Shown here: positions 47,032 through 54,039 of the stretch, piece by piece
Layout: the number at the start of each line of letters is the position of its first letter
How positions within the stretch are numbered: the first letter of the stretch is position 1
Assembly: GCA_009773555.1 (NCBI GenBank)
Contig: WSXZ01000001.1
Coordinates: 1 to 61,775, forward strand
Length of the DNA: 61,775 nucleotides
Source: Methylocystaceae bacterium
Lineage (GTDB): Bacteria; Pseudomonadota; Alphaproteobacteria; Rhizobiales; Beijerinckiaceae
Reading direction: 5' to 3'
Notes under the pieces: generated by a model
Seen by the model: only the letters and a program-made list of their open reading frames with translations
Database searches by the model: none
What the model was told of the DNA's origin: nothing
Position numbers and translations under genes: made by a program

Positions 47032-49735
<2,704 letters not shown>

Positions 49736-49763
49736 AATTCAGCGCTCGTCGCAGATAGGGCGT

Positions 49764-49873
49764 TTCCCTCCCCTCGACGGGGAGGGTGGCTTGCGGAGCA
49801 AGCCGGGTGGGGTGAATTCTATTACCCCCACCCGATCGCCTTTGGCGATCGACCTCCCCGCAAGGGGGAGGTA
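49764..49873. repeat. Nested palindromic repeat, family B, between ligA and the hydroxylase gene
   Basis: The left half reads ccctcccctcgacggggaggg with a ggcttgcggagcaagcc stem. The right half reads cccccacccgatcgcctttgg and ends cctccccgcaagggggagg. The outer arms pair (cctcccc facing ggggagg). It fills the space between two convergent genes and ends within about 10 bases of the hydroxylase stop codon. Confidence 0.85.
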
Positions 49874-49881
49874 GCGCGCCC

Positions 49882-50529
49882 TCACACCGCGCGCGCGCCG
49901 GGCGTCTCGTCCTTGCGATAGGCCGTGCCGAACACATAGTCCCACCAGATCGCGTGAACGCCGAAGCCTTTCTCGGCATCGCGGAAATGATGCAGCATGT
50001 GCAGGCGCTTCACCATGCGGGCGAAGTCGGATTTCGGCTGCCCGTGATGCGTCCAGTAGTGCACGCAATCATAGATCACATAGCCCGTGATGAAGCCGGC
50101 CAGCGCCGGCCACGCGAATGTCGCGCCAAAAATCAGGCGGGCGCAGACGAGCGCGATCAACATGATCGGCGCTGAGAGCAGCGGCGGCATGACGAGCCGC
50201 AGCGGGTCGTTGGGATAGATGTGATGTACGCCGTGGATGAGGAACTGGAAGCGCGGTCCAAGCCCGAACGGCAGCGCGAACACGGTGTGGAAGAGATAGC
50301 GGTGGCCGAAATATTCGGTCAGCGTCCAGCCGAGATAGCCGACGACAAGACCCAGTAAGACGAGCGTCAGACTGTTGAACGTGAGCGAATAGATCACCAG
50401 GCCGAGAATGATCGGGCAATAGACGATCACCGGCGTCAAATGATGCACGCGCGACAGCTTATCGAGAAGATCGCTCTCGAAGAGGCGGGGCGAAGCGTCG
50501 AGCGCTTCAGTTCTTACGTCCTGCGTCAT
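49882..50529 (-). CDS. Fatty acid 2-hydroxylase family protein (FA2H/Scs7-like)
   Basis: The 215-residue integral membrane di-iron enzyme has four or five hydrophobic segments. The histidine boxes are in the order of fatty acid 2-hydroxylases: TEYFGHRYLFH, IHGVHHIYPND followed by RLVMPP, YDCVHYWTHHG, and LHMLHHF followed by GFGVHAIWWDYVFGT. Eukaryotic FA2H/Scs7 hydroxylates C2 of the acyl chain of ceramides; this protein lacks their fused cytochrome b5 domain and would need another electron donor. It starts three bases after the desaturase stop codon with ggag overlapping that stop, so it is the last gene of the operon. Confidence 0.88.
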   Translation of the reverse strand: MTQDVRTEALDASPRLFESDLLDKLSRVHHLTPVIVYCPIILGLVIYSLTFNSLTLVLLGLVVGYLGWTLTEYFGHRYLFHTVFALPFGLGPRFQFLIHGVHHIYPNDPLRLVMPPLLSAPIMLIALVCARLIFGATFAWPALAGFITGYVIYDCVHYWTHHGQPKSDFARMVKRLHMLHHFRDAEKGFGVHAIWWDYVFGTAYRKDETPGARAV

Positions 50530-50532
50530 GAC

Positions 50533-51528
50533 TTACTCCGCCGGCGCGACGACAGGCGCTACGCGCTCCGCCGCCTGCGTGACATTTTCCGACCGCGTGC
50601 CGAGCGAATAGGTCGGATCGAAAATGAAGGTGACAAGCAGCGCCGTCCAGGAGCGATGGCAGCGCAGATCGTCATAGAACTCCGGCGCCATCGCCTTCAG
50701 CTCCGGCAAGCGATTCCACGGGATCTCGTGAAAATCGTGATGCTCGTTGTGATAGCCGATGTTGAGCGCGAGCGTGTTGAGCGGCCCGTAATAGTCGAAC
50801 GTTCCCTGATCGGGGCCGAAGGCGAAATGCTCCTGCAGCCAGCGCGCGCTCAATGGATGCAGGCCTCCAACCGAGAACCAGAAGGAGAAGAAAAGATAGA
50901 GCAGCGCGTTCGGCCCAAACGCCCAGAGCACGAAAAGATCGAAAACGGCGATGACGGCGGTATTGATATAGGTCCAGGTTCCCCAGATCGGCACCGTGCC
51001 TTTCAGGCGCGACAGGCGCGCAAGCTGAATGACCGGGAAGAAGAAGATCCAAACGGCCTTGCGCCAGCCGCTATTGCCGACCCATTCGACCTCCCATCGG
51101 CTCGGAATGTCGGCGTCATAGTCATAGGCCGACAGATGCGAATGATGCTTGATGTGATAGCAGCGAAAGCCCATCGCCGTCGGAAAGGCGTTGGGAAGAT
51201 CGGCGAGGATCGCCGTCCATTTATTGGCGAGCGGGCTCTCGAAGACGCAATTGTGAATCGCGTCGTGGATGATGACGAAATTGGCGTGATTGGCGAAGGC
51301 GCCGACGCAGATCGCCATCAAGAGCGACAGCCACCAATAGGAAAGGCCGAGCGAACCCAAGATCGCGGCGATGACGAACTGCCCGACGAAAATCGCCGCC
51401 GTGATCTTGAAGGTCACCGGGTCCTTGCCGAAAAGTTCGCGCACTTGCGGATATTTTTCGAGGATCAGCTTGCGCCGCTCGACATGCGAGCGGTCGGCGC
51501 CATTGGCGGTGACGGATATGCCATTCAT
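50533..51528 (-). CDS. Sphingolipid Delta4-desaturase (DES1)-like fatty acid desaturase
   Basis: The 331-residue membrane desaturase has three histidine boxes: HDAIH (88-92), HIKHHSH (125-131) and HNEHHDFHEIP (260 onward). Family landmarks of eukaryotic dihydroceramide desaturases are present in order: an N-terminal HVERRKLILEKYPQVREL, then GGLHPLSARWLQEH, then the YYGPLNTLALNIGYHNEHHDF block and a closing EFYDDL. Those enzymes put a 4,5 trans double bond into dihydroceramide. The ATG overlaps the stop of the acyltransferase gene (ATGA), so the two are translationally coupled. Such a close DES1 relative in a bacterium is unusual. Confidence 0.9.
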   Translation of the reverse strand: MNGISVTANGADRSHVERRKLILEKYPQVRELFGKDPVTFKITAAIFVGQFVIAAILGSLGLSYWWLSLLMAICVGAFANHANFVIIHDAIHNCVFESPLANKWTAILADLPNAFPTAMGFRCYHIKHHSHLSAYDYDADIPSRWEVEWVGNSGWRKAVWIFFFPVIQLARLSRLKGTVPIWGTWTYINTAVIAVFDLFVLWAFGPNALLYLFFSFWFSVGGLHPLSARWLQEHFAFGPDQGTFDYYGPLNTLALNIGYHNEHHDFHEIPWNRLPELKAMAPEFYDDLRCHRSWTALLVTFIFDPTYSLGTRSENVTQAAERVAPVVAPAE

Positions 51529-52739
51529 GCCGTTGCATCCTGTAGCTGAGTTGCCCTGACGCCGTCGCGCATACGCATCGCCTCGTCGCCGCCGCCGACC
51601 GTGAGGCGTTTTTCATAGATGCGATGAATCTTGTCGACCTTGCCGCCGAATATTTCGATCGGCCGGCGCATGTCGGCGTTGCTTTCCAACACCCATCCCG
51701 CTTCGAGATGCGGAACGCGTATTTTCGCATGGCGCCGCCGCATCTCTTCGACCAGCGACAGGAAGATCGCGCCGCCCGTCGCGCTTCTTTGCAGCGTCTT
51801 GCGCGTGCCAAGCAGCAACAGCCGCGCCGACTTGAACTGATGCGAGCGGAATCGCTTAAACGCGCGCGCCCAGCCGAAGGGGAACAGGCGTCCGTTGAGA
51901 TCGGCGAGAATCTCGTTGAGATTGGGAAGCGCGATCGCAAAGGACTGCGGAACGCCGTCAAGCTCGACGACGATGCCGAAATCCTCCGGCACGAGATATT
52001 GCAGCGCGTCGGCGTCGGAGTCGAATTCTTCCTTGGTGAAGGGCACGAAGCCCCAATTGCCGCTCCAGCCGTCGTTGAACAGCTCGGTCATCAGCGCGGT
52101 CTCGCCCTGCTTCAAGGCCTTCATGTTCAAAGGCCGGAGTTTCAAGCGATCGCGCCATTCGCGCCGCGTCGAAATGCGCGCCGGCTTGTCGCTCTCGTCG
52201 CTCGAAATGTCGAAGCGGTAGGACAGTAGGTCTTGCGCCTTCTCATACCCCAGCGCCTCGAGATGGCGCGAGAGATAGGGCGGATGCCAGGGCATGAAAA
52301 ACATCGGCGTCGCATTGAAGCCATCGACAAGAAGTCCGCACTCCTTGTTGACCGACGGCGAAAACGGTCCGTTGATCCGCGCCGCGCCCTTGGCGCGCAG
52401 CCAGTCCTCGGCGGCCTGGGTCAGCGCGCGCACGACCTCGACGTCGTCGATGGCGTCGAGCGCGCCGAACTGCGCGTTGGACGCGCCGACCGGCGTGACG
52501 CCGGGCTTATAGATCTGCGCCATGACGCGGCCGACCCATTGGCCGTCGCGGCGCGCGAGAAATTTCTGCTCTTCGACGAGTTTGTAATGCGGGTTGAGCT
52601 TATGCGCGAAGACGCTCCAGCGCTCGATGTCGAGCGGCGGCGCGAAGCCTGCCGCGCCAGCATAAAGCAGCCGCGGCAGCCTGCAGAAGGTCGCAAAGCG
52701 CAAAGGGCCGTCGACCGGGAGAATCTCGATCCGCGCCAT
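51525..52739 (-). CDS. GNAT-like acyltransferase, candidate bacterial ceramide synthase
   Basis: The 404-residue soluble protein appears to have two GNAT-like halves: an N-terminal one around FLARRDGQWVGRVMAQIY and RINGPFSPSVNKECGLLVDG, and a C-terminal one around TALMTELFNDGWSGNWGFVPFTKEEF. Proteins of this type are often annotated N-acetyltransferase. In Caulobacter a GNAT-related protein (bCerS) was shown to acylate the long-chain base during ceramide synthesis. Homology to that protein is my recollection, and the operon context (serine palmitoyltransferase-like gene upstream, DES1-like downstream) makes the assignment likely. The ATG at 52739 is chosen over a TTG six bases earlier. Confidence 0.75.
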   Translation of the reverse strand: MARIEILPVDGPLRFATFCRLPRLLYAGAAGFAPPLDIERWSVFAHKLNPHYKLVEEQKFLARRDGQWVGRVMAQIYKPGVTPVGASNAQFGALDAIDDVEVVRALTQAAEDWLRAKGAARINGPFSPSVNKECGLLVDGFNATPMFFMPWHPPYLSRHLEALGYEKAQDLLSYRFDISSDESDKPARISTRREWRDRLKLRPLNMKALKQGETALMTELFNDGWSGNWGFVPFTKEEFDSDADALQYLVPEDFGIVVELDGVPQSFAIALPNLNEILADLNGRLFPFGWARAFKRFRSHQFKSARLLLLGTRKTLQRSATGGAIFLSLVEEMRRRHAKIRVPHLEAGWVLESNADMRRPIEIFGGKVDKIHRIYEKRLTVGGGDEAMRMRDGVRATQLQDATA

Positions 52740-52800
52740 ATGCAAGTCCTAGCGGCCGCTGGCCTTAATCGAAAGCGTCAAAGTGACGCGGGAGTCAGCG

Positions 52801-54039
52801 CTAGCCGCCCGCCATCGCCGCGGCGACGATCTGATGCGCCTCTTCCGTCACCGGCGGCATGTCGCGCAGCATCTGGATGACGCCGCGGATTTCCGCTTCG
52901 CTGTGGTTCGCGGAGAAGAAGAAGCGCAGCCGCGGCCCGTCCTTCGGCACGCCGATGCGCACGACCGGCGGCACGTAATAGCCGTTCTCCAGCAGATGCT
53001 GCGACGCCCACATCGTCTCGACGTCGCTCGAGAACAGGATCGGCACAACGCCGCGGCCGATCGCCGGCCCGGTCGAGAATCCCGCTTCATGCGCCACGGT
53101 GCGGAAGAGCTCGGCGTTGTCCGCGAGTTTGGCGATGCGCCAGGTCTCTTCCTGCATCAGCCGCAGCGCGGTGCGCGCGGCGGCGAGAATGACGGGCGAC
53201 AGGCCGACGCTGTAGACGAAGCCCGGCAGCGTATAGCGGAACCAGTCGATGACCTGCTTCTTGCCGCAAACATAGCCGCCGCAGGACGCGAGCGTCTTCG
53301 ACATGGTGCCGACGATGAGGTCGATGCGCGCGGGATCGACGCCCTGATGTTCGGCGAGGCCGCGGCCCGTTTCGCCGAGCACGCCCAGCGAATGCGCTTC
53401 GTCGACGAGAAGCCAGACCTTGTATTTTTCCTTGATGGCGAGGAGCCGCGGCAGGTCGGCGGTGTCGCCGTCCATGCTGTAGACGCCCTCGACCACGATC
53501 AGGACGTTGCGGTATTCCTCGCGGTGGCGCGCGAGCAGATGGTCGAGATGATCCAAATCGTTGTGGCGGAATTTTTCCACCTGCGCCGGCGCGCCGTCGG
53601 CGCCTGCGACGATGCTGTTATGCGCGAGTTCGTCGATGAAGATCGCATCGCGCTTGCCGCTCATCAGCCAGGCGATCGTCGTGACATTGGAGAGATAGCC
53701 GGAGACGAGCGTCAGCGCGCTCTCCATGCCGAGGAATTCGGCGATCTCCGCCTCGAACGGCTTGTGCGTGGTGCGTTCGCCGCCGACAAGCCGCGAGGCC
53801 AGCGCGCCGATTCCGAGGCCGTCGATCTCGCGCTTTGCTTCCTCGCGGATCCGCGGGTGATTCGCGAGCCCGAGATAATCGTAATTGGCGAAGCTGACGA
53901 AGTGCTTGCCCTGCGCCTCGAATTCGGCCCGCAGCCGGTCGATCTGGGCGAAGAACGGATCGCTGAACTCCAGCAAGGCGTTGCCAGCAAAACGGAATCG
54001 CCTTGCCGCGTAATCCTCTAAGCTCTTATGCTTCGTCAC
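52801..54039 (-). CDS. Alpha-oxoamine synthase, serine palmitoyltransferase-like
   Basis: The 412-residue pyridoxal-phosphate enzyme belongs to the family that condenses an amino acid with an acyl-CoA or acyl-ACP. The cofactor lysine is Lys248 in GTMSKTLASCGGY; DEAHS (213-217) holds the Asp that contacts the pyridine nitrogen, and DELAHNS (136-142) has the stacking His140. The HNS triplet and lipid-operon context favour serine palmitoyltransferase, which makes 3-ketosphinganine, over biotin or heme enzymes; biotin or ALA genes are absent here. It starts with GTG behind aggga and is the first gene of the four-gene operon. Confidence 0.85.
   Translation of the reverse strand: MTKHKSLEDYAARRFRFAGNALLEFSDPFFAQIDRLRAEFEAQGKHFVSFANYDYLGLANHPRIREEAKREIDGLGIGALASRLVGGERTTHKPFEAEIAEFLGMESALTLVSGYLSNVTTIAWLMSGKRDAIFIDELAHNSIVAGADGAPAQVEKFRHNDLDHLDHLLARHREEYRNVLIVVEGVYSMDGDTADLPRLLAIKEKYKVWLLVDEAHSLGVLGETGRGLAEHQGVDPARIDLIVGTMSKTLASCGGYVCGKKQVIDWFRYTLPGFVYSVGLSPVILAAARTALRLMQEETWRIAKLADNAELFRTVAHEAGFSTGPAIGRGVVPILFSSDVETMWASQHLLENGYYVPPVVRIGVPKDGPRLRFFFSANHSEAEIRGVIQMLRDMPPVTEEAHQIVAAAMAGG

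Follow-up and report, generated by a model that had tools for sequence, protein, structure and literature searches.

Here we describe a four-gene operon within a window of 61,775 nucleotides (the whole analysed stretch of contig WSXZ01000001.1, Methylocystaceae bacterium, assembly GCA_009773555.1), a real and conserved operon that most likely serves to make a eukaryote-like glycosylated ceramide in bacteria. Its genes encode, in order, an alpha-oxoamine synthase (AOS) resembling serine palmitoyltransferase (SPT), an acyltransferase of the bacterial CerS/YghO family (CerS), a DES1-like desaturase (DES) and an FA2H/Scs7-like hydroxylase (FA2H). Together with a second operon on contig C12 of the same genome, it would probably direct the synthesis of a ceramide that is glycosylated, unsaturated at positions 4,5 of its long-chain base and 2-hydroxylated on its N-acyl chain. 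From the genes, their families, their linkage and their co-occurrence we infer each catalytic step, the use of serine and the product. Ceramides with this unsaturation and hydroxylation are usually regarded as typical of plants and animals. If the prediction is true, methane-consuming bacteria and soil Verrucomicrobiota produce ceramides that closely resemble plant and animal ones, the assignment of environmental sphingolipids to eukaryotes would change, and bacterial systems for DES1 and FA2H chemistry would be at hand, with the origin of both enzymes opened to test.

The operon and its distribution

A preliminary description of the window had reported four nearly gapless open reading frames (ORFs) on one strand, and all are in place on the minus strand at 49882..54039: the start of DES overlaps the end of the acyltransferase gene (ATGA), and FA2H begins three bases after DES. 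What that description treated as a set of four is part of a larger set, since the C12 operon (acyl carrier protein (ACP), ketosynthase, dehydratase, SDR, GT21 and GT2) goes along with it. The GC content of the four-gene stretch (0.598-0.647) lies inside the range of the window (0.565-0.680). In a comparison with three relatives, dN/dS is 0.035-0.353 across the four genes, and these low values, together with a gene order that is kept in other DES loci, indicate that the operon is more than chance. For the acyltransferase, an ATG at 52739 appears the likelier start than the TTG at 52745 because relatives begin there. The host belongs to Methylocystis or a near relative of that genus: among the matches listed, M. 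rosea SV97 has a DES that is 98% identical.

We examined conservation in 149 sampled genomes of the family (43 genera) and in 385 genomes of the class. The DES domain PF08557 is found in 36 of the 149 family genomes, which belong to 9 of the 43 genera, and in two of the 385 genomes of the class, one of them the window's own. Of the 35 DES loci found elsewhere in the family, 33 show AOS, CerS and DES one after another in this order, and FA2H comes immediately afterwards in 17 of the 35; at the two exceptional loci (genus g4) neither AOS nor CerS stands beside DES, and both genomes carry the two genes elsewhere. FA2H is missing from the operon in 18 genomes, lies elsewhere in 17 of them, and the remaining genome is 84% complete. 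Matches to FA2H at E 1e-40 occur in 36 of the 149 genomes, 35 of which have DES, the other being G119. CerS is present at 51% identity or more in all 36 DES genomes (matches of 25-43% occur in 8 of the other 113), and AOS at 59% or more in 35, the last one having a contig-edge fragment (68%). Two genomes combine AOS and CerS without DES (G023, AOS 56%; G062, AOS 52%), and in another 20 the only match is the more distant second AOS (40-46%). The genomes that carry a GT2 glycosyltransferase are the 36 DES genomes and no others; by chance, two sets of 9 genera out of 43 would coincide with a probability of 1.8e-9, a figure that overstates the evidence because the nine DES genera may form one clade.

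A scan of named genomes confirmed at least 554 DES relatives among at least 597 candidates. The counts that follow are for the best 80 loci, with neighbours sought within 8 kb of DES and phyla taken from record titles. Hyphomicrobiales supply 28 loci (L067-L094), 27 with SPT/AOS and CerS and 16 with FA2H, and Verrucomicrobiota supply 24, with SPT in 20, CerS in 15 and FA2H in 23; contig ends lie 3.4 kb or less from DES in 8 of 10 incomplete verrucomicrobial loci. The single acidobacterial locus has SPT, CerS and FA2H, as does one (saprospiracean) of the 20 from Bacteroidota, the other 19 having none of the three. Five loci come from other Pseudomonadota (SPT in 2, CerS in 1, FA2H in 0) and two from Ignavibacteriota, neither with any of these genes. 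In a 40-row tree the saprospiracean SPT groups with proteobacterial SPT, and the verrucomicrobial and acidobacterial SPTs form another clade. Two verrucomicrobial loci (L095, L104) also carry apparent CDP-alcohol phosphotransferase genes, read without a profile.

The second operon and a predicted pathway

All genes of the C12 operon point in one direction: an ACP, a ketosynthase (KS), a small gene without a Pfam match, a MaoC dehydratase, an SDR, a GT21 and a GT2. Much of this gene set is convergent to the DES operon in other genera, and the linkage goes further in single genomes: GT21 adjoins FA2H in G009 and lies one gene from it in G035, and in Methylocapsa acidiphila (L082) GT21 and FA2H come after AOS-CerS-DES. 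In G062, which has no DES, AOS overlaps SDR and is divergent from CerS, ACP, KS and a MaoC-like gene. GT21 matches Pfam Glyco_transf_21 (5.7e-45), the family to which ceramide glucosyltransferase belongs. Because SDR is adjacent to AOS in G062, we read it as a 3-keto reductase; an equally good reading is that it serves as ketoreductase in a chain-building module. When E. coli epi, aasR, acpR, spt and YghO were compared with the C12 stretch, only AcpR matched, its counterpart being the C12 ACP (E 0.002).

In the predicted pathway, AOS would condense an amino acid (L-serine being the likeliest) with an acyl chain whose probable carrier is the dedicated ACP of the second operon, and the product would be a 3-keto base. 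The CerS-family GNAT would acylate the nitrogen of this base, and SDR would reduce the 3-keto group before or after N-acylation. DES would then introduce the Delta4 double bond, FA2H would hydroxylate C2 of the amide-linked acyl chain, and GT21 and GT2 would attach sugars at the C1 hydroxyl.

The four proteins

The family assignments of the preliminary description draw support from profiles, named reference proteins, fold searches and co-occurrence, with AOS, which falls below every NCBIfam SPT cut-off, as the weakest link of the four-gene reading. DES exceeds the cut-offs for Pfam FA_desaturase (9.5e-24) and Lipid_DES (3.7e-9; 36.3 bits vs a cut-off of 23), and Lipid_DES is matched at E 0.001 by all 36 members of an alignment of the window DES with 35 proteins picked from 76 usable ORFs of the 80 named loci. 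Fold searches of BFVD and PDB with the predicted model (pLDDT 87.8) brought up proteins from viruses and plastid complexes that share the general desaturase fold, and are no help in deciding whether the protein would have Delta4 activity. No eukaryotic DES stood among the PDB matches of the protein. In a quick tree of 49 bacterial rows (the window DES, 45 of the 76 ORFs and three more), the DES proteins of Methylocystis to Beijerinckia form one clade (SH-aLRT 100). This placement within a bacterial clade, as far as a tree of bacterial rows can tell, does not favour a recent acquisition of the gene by the host from eukaryotes; the preliminary description had considered both transfer from eukaryotes and convergence with them. 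Nine pattern matches on viral contigs included no DES relative, and a search of plasmids gave no DES match.

FA2H matches Pfam FA_hydroxylase (5.4e-16) and, over residues 21-207, yeast Scs7 (4zr1, E 1.1e-24). At 215 residues it has no fused cytochrome b5 domain, its alignment beginning at residue 189 of Scs7 chain 4zr0; an Arabidopsis homolog without b5 is reportedly functional, to go by the title of a 1997 article by Mitchell and Martin. Eleven histidines are invariant in 15 bacterial FA2H rows, ten of them also present in Scs7 when compared by eye. Separately, the FA2H relative of G119 (L177 4314-4925; 51%) stands in a genome without a DES, CerS or AOS ortholog.

The acyltransferase is 39% identical to YghO of E. 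coli BL21 (381 columns, E 1.75e-92), a protein named alongside Caulobacter CC_1154 as 'aca', the N-acyltransferase that dihydroceramide formation requires (PMC9386255; papers are cited here by PMC number, each for the portion of its text that was available). It has no Pfam match at E 0.001; of the 23 proteins in its alignment, 16 match the Pfam GNAT model when E is allowed up to 1, the best at 3.3e-14. Its predicted model (pLDDT 82.8) finds tandem GNAT structures as top fold matches, the best at E 5.5e-12 (TM 0.57/0.71, 14% identity).

AOS matches Pfam Aminotran_1_2 (5.8e-47), is 33% identical to E. coli SPT, and has as its best PDB match the SPT 3a2b (E 4.9e-61), with the KBL 7v58 a close second (E 4.4e-58). 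Aligned according to the criteria in PMC9304779, it keeps the active-site residues Y53, H140, K248 and R372, of which the His, Lys and Arg are common to KBL, BioF and ALAS too. Tyr in place of Asn53 is reported for some SPTs (PMC9304779), and is found here in 1 of 10 proteobacterial SPT rows, 7 of 8 other SPT-set rows and none of 6 KBL/BioF/ALAS rows. Val278 is present in all 16 rows of the window's AOS clade and its sister clade; elsewhere the position is Ala in the 10 proteobacterial SPT rows, Cys in the 6 scored verrucomicrobial/acidobacterial rows, Thr in BioF and ALAS and Asn in KBL. In the 40-row tree the AOS clade (12 rows, 100/99), whose sister is the second AOS clade, lies outside the proteobacterial SPT, verrucomicrobial SPT, KBL, BioF and ALAS groups, and forcing AOS together with the SPT sets is not rejected (p-AU 0.09, 0.28 and 0.36).

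The genome has four further AOS genes: two ALAS over the cut-off, a KBL-like gene (304/460 bits, below cut-off) adjoining a gene interpreted as TDH, and a BioF-like gene (269/426 bits, below cut-off) truncated by a contig end. An assignment of the operon AOS to KBL, BioF or ALAS was also considered and seems less likely: it is these four other genes that resemble those enzymes, though the KBL-like and BioF-like ones stay below their model cut-offs. Contig C85 (L053, 393-7831) of a Methylocystis-like assembly (G000) carries an apparent bacteriochlorophyll-type gene block next to an ALAS whose match is limited to the first 331 of the model's 402 positions; the block represents either real phototrophy genes or a foreign contig. 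In G103 (L022 4642-5863) the AOS match falls into two pieces in different frames, with a genome search match only from residue 67, and is either a damaged gene or a sequencing error. Members of the second AOS clade in the family (L172 3555-6085, L173 3283-5759, L178 4538-13900) twice adjoin a YghO-like CerS and once a 2482-aa gene like a polyketide synthase (PKS), an arrangement reminiscent of the PfSgaAB system discussed below.

Table 1. Coordinates of the operon genes and of selected sites in their products (positions in the window)
Feature	Position	Strand	Remarks
AOS (alpha-oxoamine synthase, SPT-like), gene 1	52801..54039	-	412 aa, GTG start
AOS Lys248, pyridoxal phosphate lysine	53296..53298	-	from alignment with SPT, KBL, BioF and ALAS rows
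AOS Val278	53206..53208	-	position is Ala in bacterial SPT, Lys (Lys281) in SulA (PMC9304779, available portion)
CerS/YghO-family acyltransferase, bacterial ceramide synthase-like, gene 2	51525..52745	-	406 aa from TTG
DES, DES1-like putative sphingolipid Delta4-desaturase, gene 3	50533..51528	-	331 aa
Lipid_DES (PF08557) segment of DES	51418..51489	-	residues 14-37
DES histidine box 1, HxxxH	51253..51267	-	His88-His92, invariant in 36 rows
DES histidine box 2, HxxHH	51142..51156	-	His125-His129, invariant in 36 rows
DES histidine box 3, HxxHH	50737..50751	-	His260-His264, invariant in 36 rows
FA2H/Scs7-like putative acyl 2-hydroxylase without cytochrome b5 domain, gene 4	49882..50529	-	215 aa

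Alternatives and relation to known systems

Several results weigh against the ceramide reading. AOS passes none of the three NCBIfam SPT models (290, 274 and 209 bits; cut-offs 500, 640 and 670), and among its top models, all under their cut-offs, BioF comes first (342 bits, cut-off 426), ahead of SPT (290) and glycine C-acetyltransferase (277). Its residue 278 differs from the alanine of SPT, ALAS is its unstarred neighbour (86/74), and a tree constrained to group it with KBL (p-AU 0.12) or BioF (p-AU 0.09) is not rejected. The preliminary view of AOS as SPT rather than KBL or BioF holds in part: clustering with KBL or BioF, named there as the result that would refute the view, is not what the tree shows, and AOS belongs to a clade of its own. 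On the side of the second operon, GT21 has the hopanoid glycosyltransferase HpnI as its best NCBIfam model (161/310 bits, below cut-off), a PDB search with SDR as the query returned general SDRs, none named a sphingoid reductase among the 15 matches listed, and the AcpR-AasR pair of the published kind is absent from the stretches examined, no genome-wide search for AasR or CerR having been made. Additionally, 25 of the best 80 DES loci have no SPT, CerS or FA2H within 8 kb (19 from Bacteroidota, 3 from other Pseudomonadota, 2 from Ignavibacteriota and 1 family locus at a contig edge), and a single clade of nine DES genera would lessen the weight of their shared gene content.

Within the same ceramide pathway, a DES-like enzyme that hydroxylates C4 to give a phytosphingosine-type base, or that does both, is rather unlikely in our judgement; DES proteins include DEGS2, a Delta4-desaturase/C4-hydroxylase, and Lipid_DES, the histidine boxes and the fold searches do not separate Delta4 desaturation from C4 hydroxylation. 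We likewise think it unlikely that AOS takes glycine, alanine or another amino acid with the rest of the pathway as proposed, in which case the base would be 1-deoxy or otherwise altered. Its position outside the SPT clade, the restriction of Val278 to its own and the sister clade, and the 1-deoxyceramides reported among Black Sea sphingolipids (PMC11334938) speak for such a substrate. Weighing the other way are the verrucomicrobial DES and FA2H, which accompany a different AOS clade, and the two glycosyltransferases (GT2 co-occurring with AOS, GT21 sharing an operon with GT2), because the addition of sugars would need a serine-derived C1 hydroxyl.

Two further explanations would detach some of the genes from ceramide synthesis. 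It seems quite unlikely that the second operon encodes a pathway of polyketide or fatty-acid type without relation to the DES operon and shares its hosts by descent only: its ACP, ketosynthase, dehydratase and SDR could build a polyketide, and descent suffices for the joint occurrence of both operons if the nine genera are a single clade, but the convergent arrangement in several genera, the grouping in G062, which lacks DES, of CerS with ACP, KS and a MaoC-like gene opposite a divergent AOS-SDR pair, and the nearness of GT21 to FA2H in G009 and G035 all argue for a connection. Least probable of all, to our mind, is an incidental neighbourhood with AOS and CerS, the true substrates of DES, FA2H or the glycosyltransferases being fatty acids, phospholipids or hopanoids. 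This is what the solitary DES of 19 of the 20 bacteroidotal loci and the FA2H of G119 would suggest, and it gains some weight, with slightly less left to the ceramide reading, from the HpnI match of GT21 and from a Methylovulum protein of the fatty-acid-hydroxylase superfamily postulated to desaturate hopanoids, perhaps of another family than FA2H (PMC6460317). Set against this, FA2H is retained in 35 of 36 DES genomes even after leaving the operon, and other lineages have rebuilt clusters with SPT and CerS.

The predicted ceramide pathway can be set beside several known systems. The dihydroceramide genes of Caulobacter crescentus and E. coli BL21 comprise aasR, acpR, spt, epi/cerR and aca/CerS (PMC9386255), with the Caulobacter ceramide genes and AcpR described also in PMC11087976. 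Shared with them are a condensing AOS, an acyltransferase of the same GNAT-type family (39% to YghO) and perhaps a dedicated ACP; unlike them, the operons described here have an AOS of another clade, SDR rather than epi among the linked genes, and DES, FA2H and GT21 in addition. 2-Hydroxylated ceramides occur in the bacteria Acetobacter and Sphingomonas. N-acyl hydroxylation in Caulobacter is ascribed to the DesA-type protein CC_0202 (PMC11324152), and bacterial N-acyl hydroxylation by another enzyme has therefore already been published. By profile and motif, the window DES resembles eukaryotic DEGS1/DES1 in its N-terminal Lipid_DES domain and three histidine boxes, and differs in standing in an operon with a bacterial CerS. 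FA2H is like yeast Scs7/FA2H in its hydroxylase domain, with ten of the eleven invariant histidines, and unlike it in the absence of cytochrome b5. Finally, PfSgaAB of Pseudomonas fluorescens MYb115 makes sphingolipids with an AOS fed by its own PKS (PMC12134224). An own chain-building synthase, reported for PfSgaAB in the text available and guessed here, would be common to both, whereas PfSgaAB is one iterative type I PKS and the present system has separate parts and ceramide-modifying enzymes. We know of no DES or FA2H in the PfSgaAB system.

The preliminary description had also regarded such an operon as undescribed. A search of titles and abstracts, covering few subscription journals, found no bacterial DES/FA2H operon and no Methylocystis sphingolipids, and the available portions of PMC11765627 and PMC11334938 mention no bacterial DES. 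The set is not confined to this organism: DES of the Lipid_DES type is present in several bacterial phyla. A survey of type-strain Alphaproteobacteria gives sphingolipids as known from Sphingomonadales only, absences going unreported (PMC7179689, available portion). As a broader and doubtful proposal, in several phyla the condensing and acylating enzymes of bacteria may work with eukaryote-shared DES and FA2H families, in pathways assembled more than once, to make 2-hydroxylated ceramides of the sphingosine type that are glycosylated or phosphorylated; bacterial DES and FA2H might then be diverse enough to be the eukaryotic source, and the Methylocystis-group AOS might be a further sphingoid-base-forming kind fed by its own ACP.

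Some minor observations concern neighbouring genes. In another alphaproteobacterial family, G486 has a cluster of ACP, KS, LptF, LptG, GT2, FA2H-like, CerS and DES genes, and its nearest AOS relatives (31-37% identical) lie outside the cluster. The apparent LptF/LptG-like permeases of this DES-CerS cluster (L182 6125-8349) have a parallel in E. coli, where lptF and lptG also lie beside spt; such genes near ceramide genes hint at lipid transport to the outer membrane. In the window itself, a GC-rich palindromic stretch, repeat-like by eye, occupies 49735-49880 between a DNA ligase gene and the operon end.

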